Of a DNA stretch of 64,000 bases, positions 8,378 through 33,105 are shown piece after piece. The DNA comes from Owenia fusiformis (lineage: Eukaryota; Annelida; Polychaeta; Sabellida; Oweniidae). The DNA is taken from NCBI GenBank assembly GCA_903813345.2, contig CAIIXF020000006.1, forward strand, positions 35,872,436 through 35,936,435, in the 5' to 3' direction. The translations under genes were made by a program, and so were the position numbers. The first letter of the stretch is position 1; each line of letters starts with the position of its first letter. Below the pieces are notes generated by a model. The model was not told the DNA's origin, ran no database searches, and was given only the letters and a program-made list of their open reading frames with translations.

Positions 8378-8790
8378 CTAATATGTGGTATGTCCTCCTC
8401 GTGCTGCAATCAGAGCATCCTTTCTGCAGGGCCCTGGCAATGAGACGAGTGACTTAATACGCAAAATAAGGTCCCACTCCTCAATCAGGAGAGCGTGCTT
8501 GAGTGCAAAATGAGGTAGGGGATCTCTGTCACGAACCACCCTATCAATCTCATCTCACTTGTACTCTATAAGAGCCTGATAAGGTGACTTTGATGCATAT
8601 TGTAGCTGTTCCACACATAACCTGCCTTAAGGAAATCGTGGACAATGCAGCTTCCATGCGCAGGAGCATGATTATGCTGCAGCTGGAAGTTTTTCCAGCA
8701 CCCTTTTTGCAAGCGGTGATAGTTGTTGGTTTAAAAAGTTACTGTACCTCTCACCACTGACATCACGATTGAGACTCACCGATTCACTAA
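8378..8790 (-). pseudogene. Decayed Tc1-like transposase, C-terminal half
   Basis: Read on the - strand from about 8790 to the stop complement at 8378-8380, the translation keeps Tc1-family landmarks. These are a LQHNHAPAHG-type segment followed by a VHDFLKAG-like stretch (normally the second catalytic Asp region, LQHDNAPAHTA-like), then DEIDRVVRDRDP, an EEWD motif and the C-terminal AARGGHTTY block. An internal stop and frame breaks interrupt it and the Asp of the HDNA motif reads His-Asn-His. The N-terminal half is not found. It is a dead copy of a DDE transposase of the Tc1/mariner superfamily. Confidence 0.75.
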
Positions 8791-8989
8791 AGGGGCGCCC
8801 CCCTTGGTGAATATCTACTAAACATGAACAGAACCACTTCCTTGGGCTAATTTTGATAACTAATCAGTTTTTGAGCAAAATGGCTGTAATCGGGAGACAT
8901 AAACAATTTCGACTAAATGTTATTATTGTAAAAATTATACCAAAGATTAAAATGTGTAAAATTTTCCATATTAATGAGCAACAGTGTAC

Positions 8990-9610
8990 TTAAAGAGATC
9001 GGAAAAAAGATGGGAGCTTGTTTCAACAATTATTGTTTGCTCTCAGCATTACATATTATACCCTTTTTCAAAACGTTCAATATTTCTAACTTCCTTTCAT
9101 CGCAATTCTGCAATTCAACGCAACTCTTCTGACAATAAATGATTTAAACGCAGACATTTCTGCATTTGAAGTATTCAATTAACCCTTTCACGATGAGAGG
9201 CTCCATATGGAGCCCTATTATGTAATACCTTTCAGGACGATAGGCTCCTTTTGGCACCATTATTTTTATTTATATACATCAATGAAATGGCAATATCTCC
9301 ACTTTTATTAAGTATTTTTACACCAAATTTTAACAAGTTGTTTTAATGAGATGATCCTAACAAAAAATTGTATTTCAGTAATAAAATTCAAGGTATAGGT
9401 CACAGGGCGTAGGTAATTTGCAGTTTTCCCCTAAAAACCGCTCTTACTTATCCGTCACCAGGGCCAACATTTTCCTCTTATATTCACGTCGGGAAAGGGT
9501 TAATTCTTTTCTTTGAATAGGTATCTCATGTTTTCAGAAAAATTATATATTGGCAATGAATTGACGAGTCTTCGGCTTTTGGCAATATACAATATATTTT
9601 ATCATATGAA
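8990..9610. repeat. Dispersed repeat family, copy 4, split by a TTAA element
   Basis: It matches 6341-6560 on both sides of the insertion at 9183-9499. The uninterrupted copy reads through at about 6510-6525. Confidence 0.6.
9183..9499. mobile_element. TTAA-flanked MITE (piggyBac-like)
   Basis: TTAA occurs at 9179-9182 and 9500-9503. The ends are CCCTTTCACGA on the left and tcgggaaaggg on the right, imperfect inverted repeats. The interrupted host repeat is intact at about 6510. TTAA duplication and CCCTT-type ends are typical of piggyBac; no transposase is present. Confidence 0.75.
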
Positions 9611-12600: not shown

Positions 12601-13144
12601 ATAGTCGTGATGCTTAGCAAATATTAGAATCCATGCAATCATATAAATGATACTGCTTCGAGTAGTTTTCAAAACATTGTAAATATTATTACTACTCGCA
12701 CATTTGTATTCCTTTTCTAATTACCATTTTTCTATTTTATATGCGTAGACTAATGTCTATTTTGTCTTATATTTAATTATATACACCCTCATGAAGTTAT
12801 TTTTTAAAATAAAGATACAACAAACAATATGTTTGAGATACTGAGCCCAGGGTAACATCTGGTCAAACAAATAAATGCCGTAGATTTCACGAAATGCCAT
12901 ATCTTGATTTCTTGAACTTGTTTTTTGTTAAAGAATGCCATCAAAATGGAGACTTTTGTTTGAGTTGTTGGGTTTTAATATTGACTTCGATTAGTTCGAA
13001 GTAGCCCCAATGCACACATTTGCTTTCTCAATGATGCTTTAAGTGCTGTATGTTTCTGCGTATCCTTTAATCAATTCTTTGAAAAACCCTCGTAATAAAG
13101 AGTTGTTTAATTATTGCAATATCATTTTTACATGCGATTTGGTA
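9611..13144. other. Gene-free stretch, AT-rich
   Basis: No supported exon, RNA gene or complete mobile element is seen. It holds a dispersed repeat copy at about 12040-12330 and an imperfect palindrome near 11070-11120 (gtgatatctgtggaa and its complement). The ORFs at 9689-9937, 10310-10522 and 10720-10920 (- strand) have random composition. Confidence 0.5.
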
Positions 13145-13151
13145 ATGTCAG
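13145..13151 (+). CDS. Candidate first coding exon of gene 1 (ATGTCAG)
   Basis: ATG TCA G is followed by a perfect donor (gtaagt at 13152). It ends in phase 1, as the next exon requires, giving Met-Ser-Asp-Arg at the start of the protein. A 217-base intron follows. A 7-base coding exon is small enough to arise by chance, so an unseen upstream exon is the main alternative. Confidence 0.4.
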
Positions 13152-16100
13152 GTAAGTTAAGTGATGTATTCAAAAAATAATTACAATTGTATAACAACCG
13201 TGATAACACTCCTCCCGACACATTTTTTACGATGCAATTCTGCAATCTGAGCCTTTCTGAGGTAAAGAGAGTATCAAAAATAAAAAAACAACCTTACAAA
13301 GGGTTTGCAATCAAAATAAACTGTATGCTGTATTCATATATTTACATGCATTAAGGTGTTCACTTTAGATCGCACACGACGGGTGTTGAGATATAACCAA
13401 AGATACCCTGAATACTTAGAGGCCTACCAGAAGGCAAGGGAGGAAGGAACACGGGAGGTCTACCATACTCGAGTTATGATCGTTGGGCAATACGGAGTGG
13501 GGAAAACTAGCCTGAAGAAGCGTCTCTTGGATGAAGGTTTTACTAAAGATTACAATTCGACAGATGGTATACAGGTTGACCCATCAGCTTGTTATATTGA
13601 CATCAGCAATTCAGTCATATGGAAAACTAAAGCAAAAGGTGAGTCAATCACACCTTAATTTTTTTTGTATATATTACTTTCTAATATATTCTTTTCGAAT
13701 TTAACAATACCACTGTATCACAATAAGTAATGAATTTAAATGTTCATTTTTGAAAAAAAGATTTGATAAGTTGATCACAACTTACTATTCACATCCTATT
13801 TTAAAGCGTTTACTGATCCTTATAGTTTTCATCATTAAAAAATTAGCATTGGGCATATTCCATAAAAACTTATTTTCTGTAAATATTTAAAAGCGTTTGC
13901 TTATAGAAAAGTGATTAGATGAAGAGGAGACATTCAAAAATAACGGACATCTTAGTAATGTTCATGATCACTTAATGCGGCGCTTTTTCACGCTATATAG
14001 CTATATTCTTTTTATTTAATCAGCTGTAATTTTCCAATTTTTAGCACAATACACAATCCGATTTAAACGCCCTTGGTGAACATAACCATTTTTCACAACT
14101 AACTAAGTTTCAGTTAAAATGATTTTCAGGGTTCACATTGAAGGAAGATACCGATAACCCCCAGGATGTATATGACAGTGAAGTTGCCAAGAAATTATTG
14201 CATGCTGTCAAAGACAGAACATCTGGTATGTATCGGCCCAACCGCAATTAGATTCATCAAAAAGTTATAAACATCAAGACAATGGTCCTGTTTAAGAACC
14301 CCTATTCTTACTTTTGGAAAATTATTCTACCAATACTCTCTCGGCCATATGAATCTATTTGTTAAGACCCGATAAACTTGAGTTGTTTGAGAAAATGAGG
14401 ATTTCAGCATGGGTGTATTGACTTAACATGGGGATAATTGACTTTAAACCTGCATACCTTCAATGATGATATTTCTCAATAGGAAGAATAGGGGTTCCTA
14501 AACTAAGGCTATTTAAAAATGTTAGTTAACTCTGAATACAAACCGTCTCAATTCAGTGTCAATTAGTATAACATAACTTCTAGGGTTAATGTGTACATAA
14601 CATCAAGTGAATACTTCTTGCACATTTTGTTATATTTTAGGGAAACATGTTAGAGATAGCAGTACAGGTGCTACTTGTACTATTCCTCCAGATCGCATAC
14701 CAGATACAATAAAAAGCAAGTTTTTTAGTTTAGAAGATGGTAAAAATCAGGTAAGTTCGGATGACCTTTATGAATCAAGCTTAATTTCAATTACTTTTTA
14801 GTAACTTAATTATTGAAAAATAGTCATTTCTTGAATGTATGTAAACCTCACTTGCTTCCACTTCGTTAAAGTCCCCATATAAAGTTTAAACCACTTTGGT
14901 TTATATTGTAGTCTTACCCAATGGTATCAAAGTGTGATATGTGAAACTTTCAAAAAGTGGTTTTTGAAGGACTTTTTGTTCAAAAATCAATGAATTTATT
15001 TAAAACTTTTAGAGGTCACAGGTATCTTTTAGTGAGCCACTATTCATACCAATGCATAGCATTCATCCTCACATGTTTTTGCCGAAAATATTAAGAAAAT
15101 CGGTTCACAAATAAGCGAGAAATGATCAGTGCATGAAAATGGTTCAGAGAAAAATGCATTATTTTCAAAATTTTAGTTCTCATAGAAACCAATGGTACAA
15201 TAATATCTAAAACATAATGTATTCTCCCTTTTAAGCTGGTTAGACAATCAACATTGGTGTATTATTGAAGTTAAGCATCTTAAGAAAAGATTGCCTTAGA
15301 AAAAAAATCATTTTCTTGAAAAAGTTTTTGCCACCTGCTGAGTGAGTCATAATGACATCACTACTGTTGCAAAATATTTTTGATATGCTAAAACATTGAA
15401 GTGGCCAATTAAATATAGCATATATTATTGAAATAGTGTGCCCTTTGTTCAATGTCTGCAATGGTGTTCAAAAGATAATCTCTTTTGAAATGAATGTCGC
15501 AATATTTGCTGAATAAAGAATTTCAACTTATTTTGAAAAATGGCGGGAAATTTGAATATTTGAGAACTTTTTATTCAATTTTTTTTTCAAAAATCTCTAA
15601 AATAACTTTTTAAGTCATGACAAATATTAAATGAAGGATAAAAAAATACTTTCAAACTTTACCCGGGGACTTTAACTGTAATGTGTGACGGTCATTTTCA
15701 TTCCTATTATTTCACATTCCAGGAGGAAAAGCAGCTGAAATTATCCTTTTGGGACTTTGGTGGACAACACGTTTTCTACACAACGCACCAAACGTTCTTA
15801 ACGGACAGAGCCATCTATCTGTTGGTTGTAGATCTGACTAAGGACCTAGATGAGAAAGTTGATACAATTAGACAATCACGCCGTGGACCAAAACCTGATA
15901 GTGCTGCCCCTGAGAAGGTCAAAGGTGGGTACACGAACGATGTGCAGCATCAACTTACTGATTGTGCAGTGAATTTGAATCTCATAACTCATATTTAATA
16001 CAATTTTATCAAAACAGTTATCTGTGTCAAGTTGCCTTGAGGTGTATAAAAATAGAAAGGGAAATATTGTATCAAAATGCACGTATAACGATTATTCAAA

Positions 16101-19100
16101 ATCACAATTAACACTTATCATGCATTGAAGAACCTTAACAAAATGAAATGTACAGGGTGTTCAAAAAAACGCAACCCAAGGAAATCGCTATATCTTGGAA
16201 AATAATCATCCAATTATGTTCATATTTTCGGGAAAGAAAGAAGAGACTGTGTATGTATAGCCCCTGTTGTTAGTAAGTTGTAAAACATGATGTCTTGGAC
16301 ACTTGGTCAAAAGACAGTTGTACTAGCAAAATACGAAAAATGTGAATGGAAAATCACTATATCTTGGAAAATGCTAATTCAATTATGTTTATTTTTTCAG
16401 GAAAAGAAAGAAGAGACTGTGTATGTATAGCTCCTGTTGTCGGTAAATTGTAAAACATGATGCCTTGGACACCTACTCAAATGACAGTTGTTCTAGGAAA
16501 ACATGAAAACGCAGGCAGTCAGAGGTGACTGCCACAGCAATAAAACCAAATGACTTTCTAACCATGGTGTTTTGGCACTTCAGATTTGGCACAAATTATC
16601 CTCATTCAATGTGTGGTGATTTTTTGGAGTTTCATCAAAATCACTCATGGGACTTTACAGTCATGGTCAAAATGCCTTCTTAAGTCTCCCTGAACCAGGG
16701 CGTTTGACTGCGATTTGAAACCATTTCAACCATGACTGTAAAGTCCCTGAAGTGATTTTGATTTCACTCTACAGATATACCATACTGTGAATGAAGATGA
16801 GTTGTGCCAAATTTGAAGAGCCAAAACACTATGGTTAGAAAGTTATTTAATTTTTTTGAGGTTGCAGTCACCCCTGACTGCGTTTCTCGTATTTTCCTAG
16901 TGCAACTGTCTTTTGAGCAGGTGTCCAAGGCATCATGTTTTACAACTAACCATTTACAGGAGCTATGCATACACAGTCTCTTCTTTATTTTCTGAAAATT
17001 TGAACATAATTGAACTAGTGTTTTTCAAGATAATATAGCGATTTCTTTGGGTTGCGTTTTTTTGAACACCCTGTACATGTATGGCCATTTTTACAAGAAT
17101 CAGAAGCCCTAACCAAACCCGTCTGGCCCAGTTATCTACTCCCGTACTCGTAGATCTACGACGTCAGGATCAGTAGATAACTGGGCTAGACAGGTTTGGT
17201 TACAGAAGCCCTAACGTTGTATGGGCGTTTTTTGAAAACCTTTTAAAAACGAGCATGAGTCGTCAAAAAGGGGTAGATTTAAATATTTTAAATTAGTTTT
17301 CACAATATATTCTGCACTCAGTAAGCGGCCTAGCCAGGAAGAAAAAGCAACGGTGCGAAAAATCTCTCCGAACCTGCTTAAAAAGCGACGGCTGCCTCAT
17401 CCTGGCTACGCTAGACAGTAATGTAATGTTCTCACAAAGTATTGATGCTCACCAGTCACGTGTACAGTCGTTGAATGTCACTTTTAACCTTTAGTCACGT
17501 ACTGAACATAAACCAATCAGGGAGTGAGGAAGAATTGACAGTGATATGATAATGAAAAAAGTACCTAACGGTATTGATATGTTAACGTTTACTTTTCTTG
17601 TCGTTATTAGTACAATGGGAAATCATTTCTATTGAACAACAATTAAACGGTATTATTGTTGGTGGATAATCACTATGAACACTCTAGATGTTTTAGGCAA
17701 TTTTAATGCCTGAGAATCATTTTCTCGAGTGTTTCGTCCACATCCTAAATTATAAGAACACAAATGCACCTTAAAAAGGGACTTTTAACACGCAACCCCA
17801 TTTTTGGCTCACACAGTGAGCCTATGGGATTCACCAGGCGTCCGTCCGTCCGTTGGTCCGTCCGTCCATCCGTCCGTCAACATTGGCCGCACAAATTAAA
17901 ACTGCTATTCGGATTGAGTTATATCCACAGTCATTTTATGCATATCCATAATGCCTATTTGACCTATCATCGCCATTTCCCAAGTTCGCCCGGTTTCCGA
18001 GAAATTGCTGATTTTGACGTCAAAAAGTCAAATTTTCTGTAAGGGACAATTTACGATAATTGATATTTCAAAAAATACAAAATTCGAAAATTAAAGTATT
18101 CATATGGCGATGTTTTTTTCTTGAATTGCAGAGGAAACACATTATATTTTATAAATTCGTAAGCGGCATCATTGGAACTATATTGGTATTTCGTAACCTG
18201 AGCGATTTTCAAAGGAATAAAAAATTAACATATTCTCGTTTATCGTTCAATAAGTCTGGTTTAATTTCAAATAAGATATTATTTATCACATTTGTGCGTG
18301 TCAAACAAACAATAAACATGTTTCCTTGGATATTAGTATTGGATTGTGAAGATAAACATGTAAATAGAGTCAACGTTATCGTTTGAAATTATTAGTCGCA
18401 AATTATTTTGAACGACCCCTATGTCAAAAGCGATAACTTAAGAAATGGACAAGATACGTTCATACACTTTTACATGTACAGTCCTTCTCCGATGCCCTCA
18501 CTATAGGACAAAGTTTGATGCTTCATTTAATATGGTTTTTTCAGAAAAGGGTGTCTAATAATCATGAATTCTCAAATACATACCTGTTTTGGAGGATACA
18601 TTTTTATTAGACTCCATTGATCATTCCAAGAGTACCCCTTTTATTATGACATGGCCTACTTTATAACATCATACATTATAAATAATGTCGAAAAGTAAAA
18701 TATTTATTCATTTTCACTCTTTTATATACTTTAAGGTATTTTATTCCTTTCGCCTTCTTTAATCATATTTGTTAAGTCTTTCGTTTAAAAGTTTAATTTT
18801 GAAAGTGAATGGACCGGGTCCTATTATCACATGGTGTGTATCAAATTAAGCGTGACAGGTGAACACGCATCTAAAAGAGCTTTTTCGAAATGACCATCAT
18901 GATTTTAAGTTACTGGGGTTATCTCTTTTTCCAAATAACACGCACTCACATTTTTTGAAGTCTTTCTTTATATTACCCAGTACAGGCCCTTAGCCAGGCT
19001 GTGTATGTGGGGGGATTGGGGACTCCTACGATCTTGAACGACTTTCTTTCTTTTTGAATTTCAAGATTTGACCTTCGGTGACCTTTCAAGGGCAAAAAAG

Positions 19101-22100
19101 GTCAAAAAGATCTTTTTTCAACTTGCTTCAAATTGACCATTTTTTCGAATCATCTACAAGTTATCAGAAGTTCAAATCTGACTTTAGATTTGATATTCGA
19201 CCTTAATTGACCTTCTCAAGGTCAAAAAGGGTCAAAAAGGTATTTTTAAACTTGCTTCAAATTGACCAATTCTTATTTCAAAATTATCTAGAAGTTCTCA
19301 AAAGTTCAAATCTGACTATAGATTTGACCTTTAATGACATTTTCAAGGTCAAAAAAATATTTGACCTTCTAAAGGTCAAAAAGGTCTGTCATGGGAATTT
19401 TTAATGTGTGGACAGGGGGTGGGTTCAAGCCCCCCCCCTTTACTAAAATCTGGCTACAGGTATATTGCTCATATTGCATGTGAAGTATTAAAGATTGCAA
19501 TGGATGCAATCATTTTCATTGGAATCGATATAAAAGTATTCTGGTACTTACAATGCACTAAGATGTGCAAGCAACATTTACCATTTCGGGTAAAGGCCAA
19601 ACATTCATCATAGGGAACGACAAACGGCATTCAAAATATAATATCATGAAAAAACACGCAGCGTGAACAATGAGGGAATAAGAAACATCATTCAAAGTTG
19701 TATGGTTATGTGTCGGTCATGGAAATAAAAAAGAAAGCACAGCATGTTGGATAGAAATGTAAAGCATCGCTTTTCCCACAAAGTCTTAAGACTGTAAGAT
19801 GATCATATGTGAAACTGAGAATGAAATATATTGTTTCTTGGTTTTGGCAAAGACTCATTCGTTGCTGTAATCTAAATATAAACATAAAATACGAATACAA
19901 CTAACTTTTGATGGTACGTTTATATTTCACATAATTTTAAAGTCATTTTGTATCCTCCAACACATGCTTAATTAAGTTTTACAAAGACAATTCAAATAAT
20001 TCAAAAATTAAATAATGATGATCTAAACACTTTTATTAAGTACTGTCATTTCTCAAAATAATGATATAAAAATATTTTTCCCAAAGATGATATTTTAATG
20101 TTTGGAGAATACAAAATATTGGACAGCCTAATCTAGACAACTTGAATTCACGGCAGAAATACCTACACTCAATCATATATCTCCATTGTCTGCAATCGAA
20201 AATATGTTACCAAAATGTACCTTCTGGCATAGCTTTCACCAAAATAATGCATCAATAATGTATATTAATATGTCCGATGTGTTGGAGGATACAAATATTT
20301 GACAAATCGTATACATATAGTAAAACATACTTAATTATGTGACTAAGACAAATCAAACATCCCGCTTTCAAGAGTTAGTAGCACATACATTTTATTAACA
20401 TGCTCAAAAATATCAACGCAATCGATACATTTTAGGTTAAGAAATCCGAGTTTATATTTGCCAAAAGAATAAAATATTTCTTAATTGTCAAAAATTCCAT
20501 CATTAAAGTGATATTTTAAAAAAAGATAAGCAATGTTCCAAACAGGTACCTTGTGGTAATGATTGCTTAAAGTCTGGTCAACAAAAAATAACACATTGCA
20601 TGTCCATAAAATCTACATATATGTCGCAGTCTCTAGTACAACTCCAGATTTTTAAAATATCAATTATCGTAAATTGTCCCGTAAATACCAGACACTTTGT
20701 TGAAGTAGAATTTTCAAATAACTTGTAGTAGTTGCTGTATATGCAACTTATGTCCTCTGAAGATTTCAAAGCTCTTGGAATTACCGTTTTTGGTGTTTAC
20801 TCTATAAAATTTGACAAAAAGTAGGACTTATCATTTTCAGGAAACTTTTCTTATGTATAAAGTCAATGGCAGGTTTTGTGATTGACAAGTTTCTCAAAGT
20901 TTGCCTTATACTTGATCATTTCTTGCAATGAATTACATCATAACTAGATTTAAGCATTCCCTACATATTGTTCAATATATGTCAGCATCAATTTTTACCG
21001 TTTTTGAGATATTTGACGTCAAAAAACAGTAAAAATAAGTTATTTTTCAACTTCAATTTGACCAAATTTTTTTTGAAAATCATCTACAAGTTACCAGGAG
21101 TTCAAATCCGACTTTAGTTTTAGGATTTGACCTTTCCTTGACCTTCAGTGACCTTTGAAAGGTCAAAAAGTTGATTTTTGGATGTTTTTGGTCAGCTTAA
21201 TCACAAAAGACCTTACTGAGCTCTCAATAAATAAAATTTTCAAGGTCAAAGGTCATCAAACTAGGTCACACAACTGTGCTGTCTAAGTTTCACAAAGTTC
21301 GACACTACAAATCCAAATCAATATTTTTGTTTGAAAGTCAGGATATACATTCCTCTGAAGGTTCCAAACTGTGTGAGCACAGGACCGTGGGTCCTATTTT
21401 AATAGATATGTAACACCCCAGTCACATTTCCTACGGCGACCTTGCGGTCTATCATTTCTGCGGCCTGTAACATTTCTACGCTCGGCCTGGAATTTCTGCG
21501 CTCTCATACTTTTGCAGTCACATTTCCCACGGCAGCCGCACGGTAAATTTTAAATTTCTGTTGATAAATAATACTTTTTTCATTTTATTTACATCGGGAC
21601 AATTTATAAATGTTATTCATAGTGCTAGGATGTTATATCAAATTAAAAGTGATCGTAAAACATGGACAAATAATGATTCAATCTTGTTGAGCCAGTTGAT
21701 TTCTACGGGGACCTCAGAAATGAACAAATATTATAACTCCGAGTTATAATTTCTACGGCGACCCTGCGGCCTGTAAAAACTGAATACGCCGTACGGAGGC
21801 CGCAAGGCGAGCGTAGTTTTTCTACGCTCGCCGCAGAAATATACTGATTTAATTGATCTGCGGTCGACGCACGGCCTCCGTACGACAGATGTGACTGCTC
21901 GCCGCAGAATTTCTGCGCTCTCATACTTTTGCAGTCACATTTCCCACGGCAGCCGCAAGGTGAATTTTAAATTTCTGTTGATAAATAATACTTTTTTCAT
22001 TTTATTTACATCGGGACAATTTATAAATGTTATTCATAGTGCTAGGATGTAATATCAAATGAAAAGTGATCGTGAAACATTGACAAATAATGATTCAATC

Positions 22101-25100
22101 TTGTTGAGCCAGTTGATTTCTACGGGGACCTCAGAAATGAACAAATATTATAACTCCGAGTTATAATTCCACGCCTTCCCTGCGGCCTGTAAAAATCTGC
22201 ATTCGCCGTACGGAGGCCGCAAGGCGAGCGTAGTTTTTCTACGCTCGCCGCAGAAATTCACCGATTTAATTGATCTGCGGTCGACTTGCGGCCGCCGTGC
22301 GACAAATGTGACTGGGGTGTTAGAGATAAAATCCAGTACTATTCTAATGATAATGGACGATAATATTTCACATCCACTCATTTTACTTTTTAAGACTACC
22401 TTGATTACTGGTTGAATTCAATCCACACTCATGCTGGGAAGTCATCTCCTGAAACCCAATCACTGAGCCCCCCTGTCATCATAGTCGGGACACATAAAGA
22501 TGCTGTGGTAAGGCCCCACATAAAGTTTGAAGGGAGTATAAGAAACATATAGCTTATTCATTTCATTTTTGGCCCACACTACTCCTTTTTATAGCTAGTA
22601 CCCAACATTCCAAAAACGCCATACTTCATACAAGATAAAGAAATGAAATTGTTTGTGTTAGTTCCTCTGTAAATGTATGTATCATTTTTTCATTATACAT
22701 TATTTTCAAAAATCTCTTCAATCGCCCAAATGCATAATAGAAGAGTAGAGTACAAGAAAAACAAGAGTATAAGATATTGGAAAGAATGATATTGGTAGAT
22801 CGAGTATTAATGTTGCTTTCAATTTTGTAACCCCTTGTTTCTCTAATTCTAGCTTTAAACCACTTTGGTTTATGTTCTAGTCTTATCCAATTTTATCAGA
22901 ATGAGATAATTGTTTTTCTATCATTATTTTTGTTATCATTTGTACCTACGTTTAGTTCAAAATGCTACAATTCAATAGAAACATACAGGTATGTGAAATG
23001 GTAGTAAAATACTTGAATTCTGAAAGATTTAACTGATTCGTTTTTAGGCATTCTGGGTTAATGTTAAGGCGGCCATTTTGGATTTTCCGTCTTTAAATCT
23101 TATCTGTCAAGGCTTGTCTACATGTTTCCAACCAAACCGTTTGAGGGATTCATTTGAAATTCTCAGGGATGTTTCTACCTATGAAAGTTTAGAACTTATC
23201 CCTTTTTCGACATTCTGGATAAATGTTAAGACGGTCATTTTGGATTTTCCGTCCAAAAATCTTGTCTGTCAAGGCTTGTCTACAGGTTTCCAGCCAAACC
23301 GTTTGAGGGATTCATTTGAAATTCTCAGGGATGTTTCTACCTATGAAAGTTTAGAACTTATCCCTTTTCGACATTCTGGATAAATGTTAAGACGGTCATT
23401 TTGGATTTTCCGTCCAAAAATCTTGTCTGTCAAAGCTTGTCTACCGTTTGAGGGATTCAGGGATGGTTCTACCTATGAAAGTTTATAACTCATTAGTTTT
23501 TCGGCATTCTGGGTAAATGTTAAGGTGGCCATTTTGGATTTTCCGTCCTAAAATCTTGTCTGATAAATGTTAAGGTGGCCATTTTGGATTTTCCGTCCTA
23601 AGATTTTGTCTGTCGAGGCTTGTCTACAGTTTCCAGCCAAACCGTTTGACGGATGCATTTGAAATTTTTAGGGATGTTTCTACCTATGAAAGTTTAGAAC
23701 TGATTCGTTTTTCGGCATTCTGGGTAAAATTTAAGGTGGCCATTTTGAATTTTAAGTCCTAAATCATGTCTGTCAAGGCTTGTCTACAGGTTTCCAGTCA
23801 AACCGTTTGACGGATGCATTTGAAATTTTCAGGGATGTTTCTACCTATGAAAGTTCAGAACTGATTAGTTTTCTCAGCATTCTGGGTATATGTTAAGGCA
23901 GCCATTTTGGATTTTTCGTCCTAAAATCTTGTCTGTCAAGGCTAGTCTACAAGTTTGATAAGTTTTTTGGCAGTCTGGGTAAATGTTAAGGTGGCCATTT
24001 TGAATTTTCCATCCCAAAAAGTGTATTCTGTTCAAGGGTGCGATTCTATTCACCCTGTGGCTTGTTTGCTGTTATATTGGCGTTCAAAATTCGAAGAACC
24101 CAAAATTTAACAACCTTTTTAAAAAAACTAAAGTTTCTCACATTTTAAAGACGTGTCAGATACTATTTAAATGTATTTCAATTTAATTTCCAGGAACCAT
24201 TTATAGTTGTAAATCCATGGGCGATCAAAACAAAGTTAATATTTTGGGGTAATGGAAACTCAACGCGCTGTCAAATTCATTTATGATTGTAAAATTGCGA
24301 CACTATTCATCTGCAATTTATTTTCATTTTAGACTGACCAGTACATAGACGACTATTTTCACAAGATTGTAAATAGCCTACATGACAAGGTCTACTTTCA
24401 TCACGTTCACAAAACATACATTGCAGTTGATAACAAATCCGATGACGACCATGAGTTGAACAAACTCAAGGAGACAATCGTGCAGCTAGCAGAAGGTCAA
24501 AGATTCTGGGGGCAGGAAGTACCTATTAAATGGTTGCTTCTTGAGAAAAATCTTCGTGGATTAAAAACAAAATCCCAAGATCGAGAGCCAGTGCATTTTC
24601 TTAAGTTTGAAGATGTCAAAGCAATTGGTTTTAAAGAACGAATGGACGAGGCATCAGTTGTAGCTTGTCTACAATTTTATCACTCAGTTGGAGACATGAT
24701 TTTTTTCAATGAAATCGACCTCCGTAATCTAGTAATCCTTGATCCTCAGTGGCTAATCGATGTATTCAAGAGTATTATAACAGTTCCCGAGTTCCATCGA
24801 GACTCGAGAGGTCGGAACATCTTTGGCAGCATCGTCTGGGAGAAACTGGACAAAGATGGTGTGCTTCAGGAAGAATTTATTGAAACCGTGTGGAAGAAGC
24901 TTTACGCTGATATATCGATTCATAGCGACGTAATGATCGAACTCATGCAGCGTTTTGACTTGATCTGTCCATTTGAAAATAACCAGGAATGTAATCAAGG
25001 GAAAAGACTATTCTTTGTGCCTTGTTTGCTTCCCAAGCCAGAGCCCGGTGATTTCATTAGAGACAAACCATTAGTTGGTGGCACGCTTTTCTACAAATTC

Positions 25101-28100
25101 ACCTTTCTCCCCAAAGGGCTCTTTCATAGGCTAGTCGCCAAAATCTGCCTGAAAAATATATGGCCTTTATATGGCGCTGTGTTCTTTGATTACGCTAGGT
25201 TTGAAGTTGGTGATGGATGTTGTGTATTAACACTTTTAGCTGAGGACAATCACCTAGAGTTGAAAATCCACCAAACATTGGAAGAAAGAACGGATCGGGG
25301 GGACAACCTTATGGGCATCAAAATCCGTGAGGAAATCGAGGTAATACTGATGACAACCATAAAGAACTATTGTCCAAATGTCGACCCTGAGATATCTGTA
25401 AGGTGCATATGTCCGAATGTGGAAGAGGAAAAGCGAACTTTAGTGCCTATTTCAGAAAAGGATATTAATCGTGGTCACAAACAATGTAAATCTCACCACC
25501 ATTCGATAAAACTGGATCAATATAAATTATGGTATAGCACTGCACACACGGTAGGCATATTTTTGTAAAGTGAGTTTGAGATTAACGTAAAGGTCTACAA
25601 AATCGTATTCAACAGTTTATGATAAAAATGACATGCTAATTTTAGGATAAAACCCTTGCGGTGGCGAGTTTGGCGTTTGTTCGCCAGTATATGTCACCAC
25701 CAAGAGCTGTTTTACATTTCATAGAGAGGGGGCGTGGTGTAGCTACTGTAATGGGAGGGGGAATTGCTAATGGGGCAGTGACTTAAGGCGAAGTGCTAAA
25801 TTTCTAGCATGACCCAGCAATGAGAATGAAAAAAAGAACAATTAAACAAATAAAACAAAATGAAAATTTTCATACTCTTACAGTAAGCAAAACAACATTT
25901 GATGAAGAATGTGTAAATTCAACAATTTTATGCATCATCACATGGCATCGTTTATCGCATCAATGGTTGTGTTCGACCACTTAATTTCTATGCAGATCGA
26001 ATAATATACAGGGTGGGCCAAAAAAAACAATACCCAACTTCAAATCATGATAAAAATAGTTACATTCGATATGGTACATTGACTTACATATCATTTTAAA
26101 GGTTATACAATTGCCAACAATTTGGTATACGAGGGTTGTCCCAGAAGTAATGCACTATATGCTCTAACTTTCTCTAATATTCTTCAATTCAGCTGAAATT
26201 TTGTGTCTATAACAATTGAAGTTTTATCTATTATATACTGAAGTTTCAGCATCCAACATTTATATTAAGTCTTAATATGGTTGCTATAACATCATGGGGG
26301 TAGGGGTGGGCGGGGCAGGTACCAATTTTTCTAATTATGAAAAGATCTAAAGTGTTATTTTATTAATATTTCTTTCTTTTAAATGGTCGAAATGTTTGGG
26401 AAATTGTTAAATTTATTCAGCATGGTGTTAACCAAGTACAAATAATGACATTTAGCACTGTGATGTCATAAAACCACATTTCAACAGTCACGAATTCAAA
26501 TACAGTCACAGTCTAGAATTTGCAAAAATGGCTGCAATTCTCACCTGATAACAGAAGGCCTTGCGTTTGGTGGCCTGATTTCATACTTCACTTGGACTCA
26601 CAGCCACGCAAAACAATGCTACCATGAAGAAAGTATATTAGGAGTATATACCAGATAGAACTAAAAATTATAGGGTTGCAGAAGAGATTTAAAAGAGACG
26701 ATTTGACCCTGGATGACAACTGCAAACATAGGAGGCAAAAACTCCACAAGTCAAAGTTGAAGAAATTGCCGAGAGTGTTTGACCTGACAGGCATCAAAAG
26801 TACATAACATGCAAAGGGCAATATTTTGAGAAAATGTGAAATGGGATAATGTGCAATATACATTCATTAAATCTAGGATGTGCTCAGAGTAATTTAGTAT
26901 CTAAAAAAGTATTTTTGAGCATACTTCTTATAGCTACACTAATGAAATGGCATTTGTTGATTAATCATTTCATATTTTCAATTTTTTATTCCTTTTGACG
27001 TGACTGTATAACCTGCCCCGCCCTACCCAAACACACCAACTTGATTTTATATTAGAATAATCAAAATGTTTCTAAGGAACATTTACTGAAAATTTCATAG
27101 AAAAATATCAATTATTGATAAAGTTAGAGCATATAGTGAATTACTTCTGGGACAACCCTCGTATAACACCATGTCATGAAATCAATAGTAAAGTTTTATT
27201 ATACTTATTTGGGAGGCCGGGTTGCTATTTAAGGTCTCCAGATTTAAGGGAGAAAATAGTAAATCTGCGGAATTATGTTAATTTTTTATTTATAGAATAT
27301 CATTCTTTTGTTAGGTGAATACATGCTTGGATATTGATATTTGCATTATTGTGTGACTAAATTTATTGTTTATGAATTTCAGTGTTGTTTTATAACATTT
27401 TACTCTTTATTTATTTTAACAATTCCTCAATATACCCCCACCCCCTCCCCTCTGCATCAACAATAAGCTTCAAGTGGAAGCGCAATCTATCAATAGCCTT
27501 ATTGAGAGATTTCTGTTACAATTCATCTCAGCACTTAAGGATTCTGTTTCAGCTCATCAATGCTGTTTATTGGATGCTTTTGATTGTACCATTTCCTCGA
27601 GATGGCTCCATGTATGGTAATCAATCACATTAGCATCGGGGCTAGCAGTTGGGTGGCCAAGCATCGAGATCAATCAAATTGACACCTTGTTTGCAAAGAA
27701 ATGCCAATGTCTCCTTTGATCTATGGTACGAGGCATTGCTTGTCCTAAAATCTGGATACCTTAAATAGCAACCCAGCCTCCAAAATAAGTATAATAAAAC
27801 TTTACTATTGATTTCATGACATAGTGTTATATACCAAATTGTTTGAAATTGTATAACCTTTAAAATGATATGTAAATCAATGTACCATATTGAATGTAAA
27901 TATTTTTATCATGATTTGAAGTTGGGTATTGTTTTTTTGGCCCACCCTGTATGTTTGTTGTCACTAATTTAAAGTTTAATGAATGATATTTGATCTACAA
28001 GTCACATAATTTTTTGGATAAAAACATGAATTACCTATCTTCGGCAATTTTAGGTAAATACGTATCGCAAACCCTACTTAGTAAAACACCGCTTAGTGCA

Positions 28101-31100
28101 ATACAAACTACGAATAGGTATAGGTAAATGGGCAATTTACGCTAATCTTAAACTCCCTAATATATAGTATATTGTTTAGCACTTTTACGGTATTATAAAA
28201 TACTTAATTAGCTGTTTTGAGATACGGATCATCTAGTCTTGCATTACTCCAGAATTATGGATAAATGCATACTTTATTTTCTTGAATTTCTTTCGTTTTT
28301 ATATAAAACATAAAAATGCTAGTATTACTAAGCTTAATTCTAATTTTAAAGGATAGGTGAATGAAACTATTTTAAATCTATTTCGCGATATTTTTATGAA
28401 ATGCTTGCAGAAATTACTTTTGCGATGTTATTTGAATTTTGCATTTTATTTCTAGGCTGAAACAAAATCAGCAAATACCAAGTCAGGCGAAAAGACAACA
28501 AAGCAAAACCGGGGTGAGTTGGACCGGGCATATCTTTCACATAGTCGTCTTTTGACTATTGGTAACTATTTAATTTAAAAACTTGATCTATAGCTATCAT
28601 GATATATGAAATTCTAGCGGAATACAATATACAGTACTCAATTTTAGTACAAAATGTCCCTTTAATTCAGTTAAATTTATTACCCACACAAAGTTTCCTT
28701 GCAAAAAATATTTTTCGCGCTTTCAAGATACTGCAGAAACTCTCTTTAATGTGTGGAAATACGTGAACCACAAAAAGAATGAATTGTTGGTGATTTATAT
28801 TCACACATGTCTGGTTCTATCGAAGACTTTAAATAAGGGCTGAAACTTTCATTCAAAGTCTAGAAACAAGACATGCGTGTATTAAATCTAAGAAATCGAG
28901 TCTTTGGGCAAAAGTCGTTTAATAACAGTAACCACCAGCAACAGAAAACCCTCGGTGTGTTTCTTTTCATAATATACCCTTACGTTTTGAACTTTTAAAA
29001 ATGTCTTTCTTCAACATTGGCACACAAATACAAGATAAGTGCAAAGATAACTTAGGTTAGGAATTAAATTAGCTTTTGTTCATACTGGTTTGTTAATTAA
29101 ATATAATTTGGTCATTCATTTTTTAATTGTTTGTTGTTTGTGTTGAACGCGATAGTGATACGAGGGTTGATGATTTTTGTTATCAAAAGTAGAATGTTTA
29201 TATTGTTGTGATCATATATTATTAATTGTCAATCCCAGAAGGGCCTCCAGTGTTGTCAATTGTTCAGCAATTGTATTTTTATCTAACACGACGCCTTTAG
29301 TTAATCTTCTTAGTTTTATTATGTAACTCTTCTTTCTTGGAGAGACCGGGACAGACTGACTAAACTTAATTCTCCAGCTTACAAGCATGACCAAAGCTGT
29401 CTAATCTTAGCAAGGATATTAGTATGCATTGCGTAGTGATTGGTTAGTTATGAAAAAGGAGTTTCCTTATTTGGGCAAAGGGTTTGCAAAGCTATATTCT
29501 AGCACATTGATTGGAAGCTATTATAAAACAAGGGGTTAGACAAGGATTGCACAAGATTGAATCAGCAAAGGCGTAGGAATGCTATGTATTCTGCTCTAAT
29601 TTATGACTAAAGATGCGTTAACTAAAAGCACAAATGCCAACATATAAAATCAATAATAGTCCAGCAACTTAATTATAAAAGCATATGACATTAGGTAACA
29701 TTAGGTTATATTATTAGCTAACTAAGGCAACAATTTTAGCCTCCTTAAAAGTGCCTCGGTGAGTAAAACTTTATTCTCTTGCAATGTTCATAAAATGAAA
29801 CCTTCAATCTTTACAACAAATGTTCTAAGATCATCCATGTGAAAAATGATGCCAAAAGAGTAAAAATTGATCGTAAACTGTTATCAACTGAGCAGAAATA
29901 TACTGTTCAAGCTGTCTATTTATGAGATCGACTATTAAATTACCTACAAAGGACTTTATTTCAGGTAAATCAGCTGCTGGGAGTTCTGACCCCGAGGGTT
30001 CTAATCTAGAAGATACGGACAGTGGAGAAAATATAGATGATGAACACATTCATGTCCACACGGCTACTGCAGAGTTCTTTGAGAAATGGTCTAAAGATGA
30101 GGAAGTGGGTATTGTAGTCAAGGGCGTGGACAAAATTCAAGATCACATATACTGTATGAGTGCAAATGAGTCAATAACTGGCAAGAAGATTCGAATTCCT
30201 AATAGTAAAGAACGCCGTTATTGAGTTTAACGACGTTGAGCTAGAGTATTAAATTTGTCAAGACAATTTTGACTTAAGCAACCATCATAAAAATATAGTA
30301 TGTAAAATGTAACATCAAATTGTAGCATAGTTAGGGGGTGGAAACGCGTAGAGTATTTTCGTGGACGTACACACAGGAAACAACATGGCAAAGATCGCCA
30401 TCTATATTCAAAATTATGTCGGTTTAGTTTTATTTTTTTGTCGTCTGTGAACGTACTTTCAATACTTCCTTACCTGTAAATAGTAATACTATACTGCACA
30501 TCGGGGAAACATTCAATGTAAGAAATTGTCACCAAAAGCTCCAGTTTTTCAGTAATGTGGGGTTAATCACGGAACATTTTTAAAAATTATTAAAAAAATA
30601 TTTCTTTGGTTAATCCGACCTCTTAGAAAAACCGGATGGGTGGCTGTCAATTGATAACAATGGAATGTTTTCTAGAAGTATTGGGAACGTGGTGTCGAGC
30701 GTGTTTGCAGATGAGGAAACACTATAAAACACAGCATACCAAATAAAATTGCACCTACCTGATTTTCAAAAGGAAATACTCTACGCGTTATGAACCCATA
30801 ATAGTATAATTCAAAACGTTGTTTTCAGATTTATACCAATGCCTCAATGCCAAGAGGGCGCTGTTTAATAATAAACAACTATGCCTTTGAACCAAAAATG
30901 CGGAATCGTGATGGCACAGAGCATGACGTAAAGAGACTTAAGCAACTATTCGAAAGATTTGAGTATACAGTAGTTGTGAAGAATGATCTTACTGCTGGAA
31001 AGATAAGGGAAACATTAACTGAGGAAAGTAGTCGAGATCATGCTGACTCTTTCGTTCTGGTGATTCTGTCTCATGGTACTGTAGATGCCGTCTATGGTGT

Positions 31101-33105
31101 AGATAAAGAAAAAGTACCATATAAGGAGATTTACAACTTCTTCAACGGAGAGAACTGCAAAAAACTAGCTGGAAAACCTAAAATTATTATCATCCAAGCG
31201 TGTCAAGGCAGTAGGTCGCTTTGTATCTTGCTTTACTTACATTGTAATAATAATTTGTAAAGGGTTTGTGTAGGAGCTCCTTGAATTAAAATATTTGTAT
31301 ATGAATATGGTAGCATTTACAATAAACAAATTTGGGTATATTCCACTCGTGCCAGTCAGATTCTCTTGAACTAGGTATCCCTGATTTATTAGAAAACACA
31401 TACTTACGGTAGCCTTTTCCATTATTGAACAATTCTCGAATTATTATTTGAATATTTTCCAGAAAAGAAGGATAGTGGAGTTGTTACTGATGGCGAAGAA
31501 GATGAGAATGATGATAATGTAGATGTGTCTTCGATTGCGTCTTTCAAATCACTTGATTTATCGGATGATTCCACGGCACATACAGACGATGAAGAGGAAG
31601 ACAGCCCCGGTGATACATCTCCAATCATGGCAGACTTTTTCATAGCAAGCGCTACAACACAAGGTATATTGGAAACCAATGCTGGGATTAACATAATATA
31701 ATAATAATATTCCCAAACGTATCTGAATTGTTCCTAACAAAATATTCACAAATATGTTGCTAGAGGCAATACATTTGTTGATGATATTATTTCAGATTAT
31801 GTGTCATGGCGGGTTACAGATTCAGGAACTTGGTTTATTCGGGCTTTGGTGAAAATCTTTAGAAAGCATGCGGGCACAAAAGACATCCTTAGAATGTCAA
31901 CTATGGTAAGTAGGCAAGGGATTTTGTTTATAAAGTGAGAAAGCTTACCAATGGGCAATATATTAAAATAGTTTTATAGCGTCAGATTATACATGTATAT
32001 TCAAATGAAATATATAATCGAGCAAATTAATCAAGTAATCCAAAATCGACCAGACCGTTATTATCTAAGCTAGTGACGACTTTAGTGAACTCTCGTTGAT
32101 TTGTCACGTGACTGAACGGCGATATATGCCCTGAAAATCTAAAATCGCTGAATGGCCACGTGATCTTTATAAACCATTGTACATGGCAAATGTTAAAATA
32201 TAATTAGCGAGAGAATATGTCCATCTAACAATCAATAAGATACACTTAGGAAAATGATTCAATGCTAATATCTTATAATGTCTCCAATAAATGTGTTTGG
32301 TAACGAAATTCATTTCAAGACAAGAAATAGCAAACTTGTTTTTATTGACGTACAACATATAACAATGGAGAGGTTAAGCAAATACGGTTTTTCAAAACGT
32401 ATACGTAAACGCAAAGTACATTGAATCAACATAGGATTGTATCGCTTTAGTCTACTTCAGATACCCGTTCAACTTCAAAGTTGCGTGTTTAGAACGGGAG
32501 ATTTTAAATTTTCACGTTGCTATCAACGGGAATCATTATACTCATGTCTGTTGAATACTATCCTTGGAATTTTGATTTCGATGCAAAGTATAATTCTTTC
32601 TGAAGAAGATGATGTATGTTACGCATGATTTAACTCCAATAATCTTACGAAACGAGCTCGTTTAAAATATGTATTAGAAAACCAGCTATTGAACTTCATC
32701 AATGGGATACTATGTAATCATTACAAGCTATGGTGTAGTCTAAACAAACACTAGAGCTGAACGGCTATTTATGTGTGAACTCTACATGTATTTGTATAGG
32801 GCCGATTGATACGTTTAAGTTGCGTTTTGGATTTTATACGGTAGCTTAACCTCTCCATTATCAAATATACCCTGTACATACGATGAGAACAACAACGCAT
32901 AGGTCAGTATTAAAAAAGTAGCAGAGAAGGTCCATATAATTTTACTGGTCTTCTACTTGCCATTATCTAATATTTGTTAATTTTTCAGATCAACAAACTC
33001 GTGGCAACAAAAACCACTAGAAGTGGTAAGAAACAAATGCCAACGTTCAACAATCAACTGACAAAGACTTTTTATTTCTTCCCCGGACATGGATGCAAGG
33101 AATAG
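13145..33105 (+). CDS. Roc-COR GTPase fused to a caspase (predicted 13-exon gene)
   Basis: Predicted coding exons: 13145-13151, 13369-13638, 14130-14225, 14641-14750, 15723-15924, 22395-22507, 24333-25550, 28456-28513, 29965-30104, 30829-31210, 31463-31663, 31796-31905, 32989-33105 (1007 residues). Every junction has GT/AG and matching phase. Order of domains: Roc GTPase (P-loop GQYGVGKTS at residues 42-50, DFGGQ at 172-176, THKD at 261-264), COR (about 290-660), a Lys/Thr-rich linker, an acidic spacer, then caspase p20 (His820, Cys863 in QACQG) and p10 (SWR at the start). Roc-COR modules bind GTP and dimerise; caspases cleave after Asp in cell death or inflammation. No LRR or kinase part is seen. 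The start ATG is the least certain part; the join at 25550/28456 is inferred from phase. Alternatively these are two adjacent genes, Roc-COR ending at the TAA at 25566-25568. Confidence 0.6.
13369..13638 (+). CDS. Gene 1 exon: Roc domain with P-loop
   Basis: The acceptor is cactttag and the donor g/gtgagt, phase 1 to 1. It encodes a basic, Arg-rich lead of about 35 residues, then VMIVGQYGVGKTSLKKRLL, the G1 loop and following helix of a Ras-like Roc domain, and the switch I region. No ATG opens the frame (the nearest in-frame GTG at 13356 lies before the acceptor), so the start must come from an earlier exon. Confidence 0.85.
14130..14225 (+). CDS. Gene 1 exon: Roc insert segment
   Basis: Acceptor gattttcag, donor g/gtatgt, phase 1 to 1. 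It encodes GFTLKEDTDNPQDVYDSEV and a helix-like AKKLLHAVKDRT segment. No diagnostic motif is present; the call rests on phase and position. Confidence 0.65.
14641..14750 (+). CDS. Gene 1 exon: Roc insert before switch II
   Basis: Acceptor tatattttag, donor cag/gtaagt, phase 1 to 0. It encodes a polar segment ending in FFSLEDGKNQ and leads in frame into the switch II exon. Confidence 0.65.
15723..15924 (+). CDS. Gene 1 exon: Roc switch II (DFGGQ)
   Basis: Acceptor ttcacattccag, donor g/gtgggt, phase 0 to 1. It encodes LSFWDFGGQHVFYTTHQTFL followed by RAIYLLVVDL, the G3 motif and the next beta strand, as in the Roc domains of LRRK and MFHAS1-type proteins. Confidence 0.9.
16153..17073. mobile_element. 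Long inverted-repeat element with TA duplication
   Basis: TA flanks both sides (16151-16152, 17074-17075). The ends are inverted copies of CAGGGTGTTCAAAAAAACGC, and the two halves stay complementary for roughly 350-400 bases. The left arm holds an extra internal duplication (about 16178-16340 against 16355-16510). CAGGG-type ends with TA duplication fit the Tc1/mariner superfamily. There is no transposase. It sits in a Roc intron. Confidence 0.8.
17110..17202. mobile_element. Foldback element of about 90 bases with direct-repeat flanks
   Basis: Arms of about 30 bases (starting taaccaaacc and ending ggtttggtta) pair with three mismatches around a 31-base loop. cagaagccc precedes it at 17101 and recurs at 17203; the repeat extends to 13 bases if the next taac is counted. 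It is probably a non-autonomous foldback insertion with a 9-bp target duplication. Confidence 0.7.
17790..21405. repeat. Large decayed dispersed repeat with tandem GTCC and GGTCAAAA tracts
   Basis: It begins with ggctcacacagtgagcct and a (gtcc)n tract at 17838-17880, and ends with gtgagcacaggaccgtgg near 21375. Inside, 19040-19400 and 20990-21260 are built of aaggtcaaaaagg-type words interspersed with gacctt complements. ORFs here (17764-18042, 18060-18386) carry no recognisable motif. The assignment as one repeat is inference. Confidence 0.45.
21413..22320. mobile_element. TIR element with 417-base internal duplication
   Basis: ACACCCCAGTCACATTT at 21413 is answered by its exact complement ending at 22320, with TA on both sides (21411-21412, 22321-22322). 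A segment beginning gaatttctgcgctctcatac at 21490 recurs at 21907. The sequence is locally GC-rich and full of short inverted words (ctacgctcgccgcagaaat). Two ORFs on the - strand are antisense repeats of one another and are not genes. Confidence 0.8.
22395..22507 (+). CDS. Gene 1 exon: Roc G4 motif (THKD)
   Basis: Acceptor actttttaag, donor gtg/gtaagg, phase 1 to 0. It encodes DYLDYWLNSIHTH, then a serine/proline loop and VIIVGTHKDAV. THKD is the guanine-specificity motif of Roc domains. Confidence 0.88.
23049..24020. repeat. Minisatellite, period about 162 bases
   Basis: cattctggrtaaatgttaag recurs at 23049, 23211, 23372, 23505, 23715 and 23878, followed each time by ccattttggattttccgtc and tttctacctatgaaag. 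The first three units are about 161-162 bases apart; later ones are shortened or lengthened. It lies wholly in the intron between the Roc G4 exon and the COR exon. The + strand ORF at 23078-23383 is a translated repeat unit. Confidence 0.85.
24333..25550 (+). CDS. Gene 1 exon: COR domain
   Basis: Acceptor ttcattttag, phase 0; a 406-residue open exon. It begins TDQYIDDYFHKIVNSL and carries typical COR sequence: FLKFEDVKAIGF, a FYHSVGDMIFF segment, then LVILDPQWLIDVFKSII. The second half, about residues 480-640 of the protein, has the CPF and FVPCLLP-type pattern of the COR C-terminal subdomain. The donor is acg/gtaggc, weaker than consensus. If it is not used, translation continues five codons (VGIFL) to a TAA at 25566-25568. 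Confidence 0.9.
26130..27161. mobile_element. Mariner-like element nested inside 26009-27949
   Basis: The ends are cgagggttgtcccagaagta and its complement, with TA at 26128-26129 and 27162-27163. The right arm of the outer element keeps the uninterrupted site (complement of ggtatataacac near 27826-27837), so the order of insertion is clear. No transposase reading frame is recognisable inside; it is non-autonomous. Confidence 0.82.
27440..27760 (-). pseudogene. Broken Tc1/mariner transposase of the outer element
   Basis: On the - strand the translation gives, across at least two frameshifts, YHRSKETLAFLCKQG, then LDAWPPN, then SPDANVIDYHTWSHLEEMV, then KAIDRLRFHLKL. The SPD-x-N-x-ID block is where the third catalytic acidic residue lies in Tc1/mariner transposases. 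Stops interrupt it. The + strand ORF at 27382-27633 is a shadow. Confidence 0.7.
28456..28513 (+). CDS. Gene 1 linker exon joining COR to caspase (predicted)
   Basis: Acceptor ttatttctag, donor cggg/gtgagt, phase 0 to 1: exactly the phases needed between the COR exon and the caspase spacer exon. It encodes AETKSANTKSGEKTTKQNR, a low-complexity basic linker. It is short and motif-free, so it rests on splice signals alone. It is the key piece of evidence for the fusion. Confidence 0.55.
29965..30104 (+). CDS. Gene 1 exon: acidic caspase spacer
   Basis: Acceptor ctttatttcag, donor gaa/gtgggt, phase 1 to 0. It encodes a Ser/Asp/Glu-rich stretch with EDTDSGENIDD and then EFFEKWSKDEE. The paralogous exon at 45961-46058 has the same phases and the shared EDTDS and EFFEKW motifs, which supports both as real exons. 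Confidence 0.85.
30343..30789. mobile_element. MITE with AACGCGTAGAGTATTT ends
   Basis: AACGCGTAGAGTATTTTC at 30343 is complementary to the sequence ending at 30789. It fills most of the intron before the caspase p20 exon. No clear target duplication and no coding sequence are seen. Confidence 0.65.
30829..31210 (+). CDS. Gene 1 exon: caspase p20 catalytic subunit
   Basis: Acceptor gttttcag, donor a/gtaggt, phase 0 to 1. The exon has RGRCLIINN, MRNRDGTEHDV (S1-pocket Arg region), the catalytic His in LSHGTVDAVYG and the catalytic Cys in QACQG. Both catalytic residues are intact. QACQG is the initiator-type variant (caspase-8/10-like) and not the QACRG of many executioners. Confidence 0.97.
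31463..31663 (+). CDS. Gene 1 exon: caspase inter-subunit linker
   Basis: Acceptor attttccag, donor g/gtatat, phase 1 to 1. An Asp/Glu/Ser-rich linker precedes MADFFIASATTQ, the first strand of p10. Several Asp residues are candidate self-cleavage sites between the subunits. Confidence 0.92.
31796..31905 (+). CDS. Gene 1 exon: caspase p10 core
   Basis: Acceptor tatttcag, donor atg/gtaagt, phase 1 to 0. It encodes YVSWRVTDSGTWFIRALVKI, the p10 strand and helix with the conserved SWR and GTWF(I) motifs. Confidence 0.95.
32364..32859. mobile_element. MITE with AATGGAGAGGTTAAGC ends
   Basis: AATGGAGAGGTTAAGC at 32364 is answered by its complement at 32844-32859. It lies in the last intron of gene 1. 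There is no transposase and no clear target duplication. Two ORFs inside are chance. Confidence 0.7.
32989..33105 (+). CDS. Gene 1 last exon: caspase p10 C-terminus
   Basis: Acceptor tttttcag, phase 0, ending at TAG 33103-33105. It encodes INKLVATKTTRSGKKQMP and ends FYFFPGHGCKE. The paralogue ends FYFFPGH. An ATTAAA at 33208-33213 could be its poly(A) signal. Confidence 0.92.
   Translation: MNKLVATKTTRSGKKQMPTFNNQLTKTFYFFPGHGCKE

Follow-up and report, generated by a model that had tools for sequence, protein, structure and literature searches.

A predicted Roc-COR GTPase joined to a caspase in the annelid Owenia fusiformis

A thirteen-exon gene and its surroundings

The window, by which we mean the whole 64,000-nucleotide stretch analyzed, corresponds to C6:35872436-35936435 in the 498-Mb, intron-bearing genome of Owenia fusiformis. 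Roc motifs, a COR exon, and a caspase with intact His and Cys follow one another on its forward strand, as the first-pass annotation had reported; their positions are as it gave them, and Pfam agrees. We call this Roc-COR-caspase gene W1. It is modeled as 13 exons that open with an ATG at 13145 and finish with a stop at 33105 (+), with 3024 coding bases, 1007 amino acids, and phases that agree. The exon limits were placed by hand from splice sites and paralogue comparison, and the exon ends named earlier (13145, 24333, 25550, 28456, 29965, 31210, and 33105) were all recovered, including those of the tiny first exon. Because a conserved ATGTCAG exon lies at 13145, the frame is taken to start just before Roc. 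Paralogous loci are denoted A to F, and a second caspase gene in the window is denoted W2.

13145..13151 (+): exon 1, short first coding exon (ATG TCA G); ATGTCAGGTAAGT is identical in B and C
13369..13638 (+): exon 2, start of Roc with G1 motif GQYGVGKTS; Pfam Roc 1.7e-7 (containing ORF)
14130..14225 (+): exon 3, Roc insert; tblastn matches in A, B, D, and E; phases agree
14641..14750 (+): exon 4, variable Roc loop; 38.9% identity to A; phases agree
15723..15924 (+): exon 5, Roc G3 motif DFGGQ; Pfam Roc 4.2e-10 (containing ORF); pN/pS 0.11
22395..22507 (+): exon 6, Roc G4 motif THKD; tblastn matches in A, B, C, D, E, and F; phases agree
24333..25550 (+): exon 7, COR; Pfam COR-A 4.4e-16 (containing ORF); PDB CtRoco 3dpt, E 0.0014
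25565..28162 (+): insertion of ~2.6 kb in the intron 3' of COR; lacking at the matching site of B and C; inverted repeats inside
28456..28513 (+): exon 8, Lys/Thr-rich bridging exon, phase 0 to 1; with both splice sites, matches C at E 2.6e-5
29965..30104 (+): exon 9, acidic linker; 77% DNA identity to A over 110 bp, E 1.2e-19; present in W2
30829..31210 (+): exon 10, caspase p20 with LSHG and QACQG; Peptidase_C14 1.2e-35 (containing ORF)
31463..31663 (+): exon 11, Asp/Glu-rich intersubunit linker and start of p10; 53.0% identity to A; its end aligns to CED-3
31796..31905 (+): exon 12, p10 with SWR motif; aligned to CED-3 YVSWR
32989..33105 (+): exon 13, end of p10 and stop; 73.5% identity to A
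45284-45757, 45876-46106, 51989-53993 (+): W2, with a Death exon (1.8e-5), an acidic linker, and a p20 ORF (1.2e-35)

The open frame that runs past the COR donor stops at 25568. The wide gap between COR and caspase in W1 consists mostly of the ~2.6-kb insertion, whose edges are marked by the paralogues: window position 25565 joins B 9210, 28162 joins B 9215, and 28161 joins C 12020. Nested inverted repeats occupy window 26003-27955 (+) within the insertion, and this element is probably a DNA transposon or MITE.

Three further elements accompany the caspase genes. At window 39078-41696 (-) lies an 873-aa LINE-type ORF that matches endonuclease and reverse transcriptase. The intron of W2 holds a retroelement at window 47538-51400 (-), with reverse transcriptase, RNase H-like, phage-integrase-type recombinase, and zinc-knuckle ORFs, which we take to be DIRS-like. 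At window 60099-61779 (+), an ORF with a PRDM2-type PR domain is followed by C2H2 zinc fingers.

Paralogues and the step from COR to caspase

The genome contains 22 COR-A matches (some being two exons of one gene) and 37 Peptidase_C14 matches. Only 3 of the 22 are followed, on their own strand and at 2.1-5.8 kb, by a Peptidase_C14 match, namely, W1, locus A (C6:24.35 Mb, 11.5 Mb from W1), and locus B (C6:35.65 Mb). Locus A comprises 13 exons encoding 1096 aa in the order Roc-COR-linker-caspase, and the junctions it shares with W1 have the same phases. It differs from W1 in that it has an extra Roc-loop exon, carries an ATG near the start without a separate exon for it, and stops four codons sooner. 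The two proteins are 65.6% identical, with a pN/pS of 0.31 (95% limits, 0.28-0.35) over 998 codons. By exon, the ratio lies within 0.11-0.33 for most parts of Roc, COR, and the caspase (for example, 0.20 at 75.3% identity in exon 2 and 0.18 at 82.8% identity in exon 10) and is higher for the variable Roc loop (0.47), the intersubunit linker (0.53), and the acidic exon (0.58). Judged from this sequence comparison, the Roc, COR, and caspase exons are under purifying selection.

Ratios so far under 1 argue against W1 being a pseudogene or an artefact of assembly, as do the absence of N from the window, the lack of internal stops in the spliced W1 frame, and the separate, open reading frame of A. 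What speaks for decay or misassembly comes from copy B, which is without the bridging acceptor, reads QACQS at the caspase Cys motif, and diverges from W1 as a mosaic (pS of 0.15 and 0.17 for COR and exon 2, against 0.49 and 0.50 for exon 5 and p20). The p20 of B compared with that of W1 gives a pN/pS of 0.23. We consider a pseudogene or artefact extremely improbable. The mosaic is of the kind that partial gene conversion would leave, and a single clean co-duplication of W1 and B was rejected on that account. Barring one weak linker-like match, neither an acidic exon nor a p10 was matched in the 13 kb past the p20 of B. The weak match, a linker-p10-like exon (MADFLIGYATTE, E 0.54), lies ~10 kb 3' of that p20 (L106, about C6:35642668, minus strand); it may belong to a separate gene or be the displaced p10 of B.

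The step from COR to caspase deserves particular scrutiny. A bridging exon is needed there to carry the frame from the phase-0 end of COR to the phase-1 start of the acidic exon. It had been claimed that every junction is in phase, and phases do agree across the 13 exons, but this is weak evidence for the COR-to-caspase step: in our scan, the post-COR intron of W1 offers three possible bridging exons, random sequence averages 0.83, and 57% of 60 random-sequence trials supplied at least one. We therefore set aside phase agreement as proof of fusion, and the claim is carried instead by the paralogues. The chosen bridging exon is kept together with both splice sites in the Roc-COR paralogue C (E 2.6e-5), with an in-frame 6-base difference. 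Paralogue B retains its 3' part and donor, the acceptor being lost. The bridging exon of locus A has weak splice sites and yields 0 candidates in the consensus scan. When the W1 bridging peptide is compared with the A intron, the top match is the A bridging exon, in frame (score of 32 versus 27 for the next); the C bridging peptide scores 17 on that exon and 21 elsewhere. Between W1 and A, the exon spans 20 codons at 35% identity, with a pN/pS of 0.79 (0.41-2.16) that is too short a sample to judge; the bridging and acidic exons together give 0.64 (0.45-1.05). From the exon lengths, the linker from COR to p20 measures ~66 residues in W1 and 80 in A.

These observations bear on whether the locus holds two adjacent genes that were duplicated together: a Roc-COR gene ending soon past COR and a separate short-prodomain caspase with its own promoter. 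Caspases of the same subfamily do occur without a nearby COR match (W2, which has a Death exon, and H, which meets an assembly gap). In W1, a caspase-only protein could begin at an in-frame ATG at 29922, 43 bases 5' of the acidic exon, and the p20 contains MPRGRC. The weak constraint on the bridging exon between W1 and A is also in keeping with two genes. Yet the donor 3' of COR occupies a constant position across W1, A, B, and C, whereas the read-through frame has no conserved stop, and the bridging exon is conserved with its splice sites in C. In W1, A, and W2 alike, the acidic exon is entered at a phase-1 acceptor; it contains no ATG in W1 or A, and the sequence ahead of it in A lacks an in-frame ATG. 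Moreover, COR and the acidic exon are only 1 kb apart in A (1.6 kb from COR, C6:24349668-24350888, to p20, C6:24352454-24352844). We regard two separate genes as quite improbable.

Elsewhere in the genome, the same modules recur in other company. A Death exon lies downstream of COR in paralogues D (C6:37.48 Mb, 1.1e-5) and F (contig C47, 1.9e-7), and no Pfam match was obtained in the 6.8 kb after the COR of paralogue E. Paralogue C enters N before any caspase is visible (436 N in L005; 8652/10000 in L105). No COR match was found near W2. With COR and a downstream Death exon in D and F, COR and caspase in W1 and A, and Death and caspase in W2, one genome thus holds three module pairings. We also observed a same-subfamily caspase cut by a 500-N gap, with an unreadable upstream module (L012 5437-7033, C6:35.828 Mb), and a giant Roco frame, intronless there, in which Roc and COR-A (C1:56917383-56918546, minus strand) fall within a single 4937-aa open frame.

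The variety of pairings would suit a locus at which splicing yields the Roc-COR-caspase fusion alongside Roc-COR and caspase-only proteins. The Death exon of W2 is in phase 1 at both ends, judged from its splice sites, which makes it a symmetric cassette able to sit between the Lys-rich exon and the acidic one, so that the Lys-rich exon might join it. Against such splicing, W2 lies 12 kb 3' of the W1 stop, with the LINE-type ORF in between. We think multiple forms of this type unlikely. The reading that we prefer remains a Roc-COR protein fused to a caspase, which is supported by the diverged locus A of the same build and by the bridging exon kept in C. On this comparative evidence, it is very probable that the Roc-COR-caspase fusion is a real gene, and we infer that a single transcript extends across COR and caspase.

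Domains of the predicted protein and a possible mode of activation

Pfam was run on the spliced W1 protein minus its first three residues. Roc scores 69.7 bits against a cut-off of 27 (3.3e-19), and COR-A, directly C-terminal of Roc, scores 57.2 bits against a cut-off of 35.3 (2.3e-15). COR-B falls under its cut-off of 27, at 13.5 bits in W1 (0.064) and 14.2 in A. Peptidase_C14 scores 207.8 bits (2.5e-61) and covers model positions 1-233 of 233. The G motifs of Roc are intact (GQYGVGKTS at residue 42, DFGGQ at 172, and THKD at 261). In the caspase half, p20 and p10 are both present with the His-Cys dyad (LSHG at 818, QACQG at 861), followed by YVSWR at 934. The His, Cys, SWR, and RNRDGT segment align to CED-3 (TRNGT, YVSWR); the Arg of the RxGT segment and the SWR are presumably residues of the P1-Asp pocket. 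W1 thus has a complete caspase domain, in which the catalytic and pocket motifs are as expected. An AlphaFold model of the COR exon alone had a pLDDT of 33 and was left unused.

Several additional domains were sought. Between COR and p20, CARD, DED, and Death gave no Pfam match in W1 or A at E 0.05, and a Death domain in that position was accordingly dropped as a candidate; prodomains of these three types are likewise absent from the spliced W1 and A proteins by Pfam. Kinase, ankyrin, Death, and CHAT domains have no Pfam match in the spliced W1 protein. An N-terminal LRR or other sensor was rejected after no Pfam match was found in three frames of window 5001-13382, and inter-paralogue matches upstream of W1 were discounted as an extra N-terminal module, as they resemble dispersed repeats or shared flanks.

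Initiator caspases are activated by pairing, that is, by proximity, and the predicted architecture suggests how this might be achieved without a conventional prodomain. A COR dimer would draw two caspase zymogens together, with the Lys-rich and acidic exons serving as a flexible tether, and the paired zymogens would become active through cleavage in the Asp-rich intersubunit linker. Roc-COR would then stand in for the CARD, DED, or Death prodomain in a death or defence switch. The nucleotide on Roc would set the pairing, GTP probably keeping the subunits apart and its hydrolysis, GDP, or an empty Roc pairing them. Since a sensor domain was not found, the input might be a partner acting on Roc or the nucleotide state itself.

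The GTP-switched dimeric platform first proposed has to be given a polarity. Excerpts of PMC5714945 describe Roco dimerization as dependent on nucleotide; in the bacterial Roco described there, GTP yields mainly monomers, and the GDP-bound or nucleotide-free protein is mainly dimeric; the same excerpts describe conflicting dimer data for LRRK2. Because the bacterial Roco studied pairs in the GDP or apo state, GTP may be the safety of the switch and not its trigger.

The fused protein could also be made with Roc-COR acting only as a scaffold or localizer, the caspase being switched on by another protease or an adaptor and not by COR pairing. The linker of ~66 residues (80 in A) that parts COR from p20 and the weak COR-B would fit such an arrangement. 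It is countered by the proximity-driven nature of initiator caspases noted above and by the COR residues that, in excerpts of PMC5714945, make the dimer contacts in the CtRoco structure. A scaffold role is, in our estimation, rather unlikely. COR-driven approach of the caspases is a plausible mechanism, and the reading as a whole, in which a single W1 gene encodes a 1007-aa Roc-COR-caspase whose COR pairing activates the caspase, is one that we hold to be somewhat more probable than not.

Bacterial Roc-COR proteases, known relatives, and significance

A Roc-COR protein ending in a caspase had been put forward as an unfamiliar design; it is already on record in bacteria. According to excerpts of PMC8195603, bacterial AP-GTPase(Roc)-COR proteins with LRRs bear at least 24 C-terminal domain types, including TIR and caspase, and we found cyanobacterial Roc-COR-CHAT proteins ourselves. 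Eight plasmid records had a match, and none of the 7 plasmid Rocos examined carries a caspase (Peptidase_C14); EAD11 occurs in two. Six Peptidase_C14 matches were present on two Haliscomenobacter plasmids, all distant from the plasmid COR. An initial genome scan gave no relative, and a later one, of bacterial and archaeal genomes, gave at least 509, from which 80 loci were kept. A caspase-motif regex matched none of the 77 of these 80 loci with a long enough frame, a negative result that shows little, as the regex misses CHAT too.

Pfam was given 10 of the 11 kept loci with the longest C-terminal part (L088 being left out) and found CHAT in 7 (one partial), TIR in 3, and Peptidase_C14 in 0. 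CHAT domains are protease-type domains akin to caspases. The seven Roc-COR-CHAT loci are cyanobacterial (L066, L067, L068, L074, L076, L078, and L090); FIGH and the Cys motif are present in all six of the seven CHAT parts that were inspected, a stricter dyad regex matches 3 of 7, and L076 is the only one in which LRRs were noticed by eye. Three loci (L070, L079, and L098) are cyanobacterial Roc-COR proteins with a C-terminal TIR that adjoin the CHAT rows in a tree of COR sequences. Effectors, CHAT or TIR, have been swapped on one Roc-COR frame in cyanobacteria.

This COR tree was built from 27 chosen rows, 7 animal and 20 of 87 bacterial, and was midpoint rooted, with long branches. A fully supported branch splits the animal from the bacterial rows, and the 7 CHAT rows cluster together among the cyanobacteria (90/82). 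The branching among the 27 rows does not separate one from several gains of the caspase in animals. As the protease of W1 matches CED-3 and caspase-3 and its COR lies on the animal side, the sequences indicate that the animal fusion was not acquired as a bacterial Roc-COR-CHAT gene.

Set beside individual known proteins, W1 resembles several in part. CED-3 (8jol, E 3.6e-47), followed by caspase-3, is the nearest solved structure to the caspase half, and W1 has Roc-COR in the N-terminal region where CED-3 has its CARD prodomain. DAPK1, laid out as N-terminal kinase, ankyrins, Roc-COR, and Death, links Roc-COR to cell death, and the Death exons of D and F are similar to the Death domain at its C-terminus; as excerpted from PMC6337361, it has a kinase before Roc-COR and no caspase, whereas W1 is without kinase, ankyrin, or Death. 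The Roco of Chlorobium tepidum (3DPT/3DPU) is the best solved match of the W1 COR exon (E 0.0014); it is an LRR-Roc-COR protein for which the structure entries and excerpts of PMC5714945 name no caspase. The bacterial AP-GTPase(Roc)-COR-effector proteins excerpted from PMC8195603 also place a caspase or other effector after Roc-COR, but they bear N-terminal LRRs, and none was found in W1. The cyanobacterial proteins similarly have a protease-type domain after Roc-COR; theirs is CHAT (PF12770), with COR on the bacterial side of the tree, whereas W1 carries Peptidase_C14 and has no CHAT match.

Among the matches listed for open PubMed Central, no animal Roc-COR-caspase was found in print. Surveys of caspase prodomains, as excerpted from work on amphioxus (PMC3196919), bivalves (PMC7836458), and Mytilus (PMC10967218), name CARD, DED, DD, dsRNA-binding, FN3, and PB1, not Roc-COR. 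The Aplysia immunome, in excerpts of PMC9334734, places ROCO domains in TLRs, MyD88-like proteins, and TIR proteins, and a caspase may be among those ROCO proteins. Because subscription journals and protein databases lay outside the search, an annotated animal protein of this kind may well exist. The Roc-COR-protease design is thus known in bacteria, and its animal Roc-COR-caspase version is new to the open literature that we searched.

If fused as predicted, the W1 protein would unite switch and executioner in one chain and would be an animal counterpart to the bacterial Roc-COR-protease proteins, drawn from a different protease stock. It is conceivable, although we offer this only tentatively and lean against it, that animals used caspases of their own to arrive afresh at a GTPase-gated protease switch like those of bacterial conflict systems, with Roc-COR, Death, and caspase exons shuffled within the lineage and with gating that would need no adaptor such as FADD or Apaf-1 and would use GTP as the safety. 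How the nucleotide state and dimerization of a Roco protein control an attached enzyme is a question made prominent by LRRK2. In W1, the attached enzyme would be a caspase, and since a simple substrate suffices to follow its activation by pairing, this coupling would be directly measurable.
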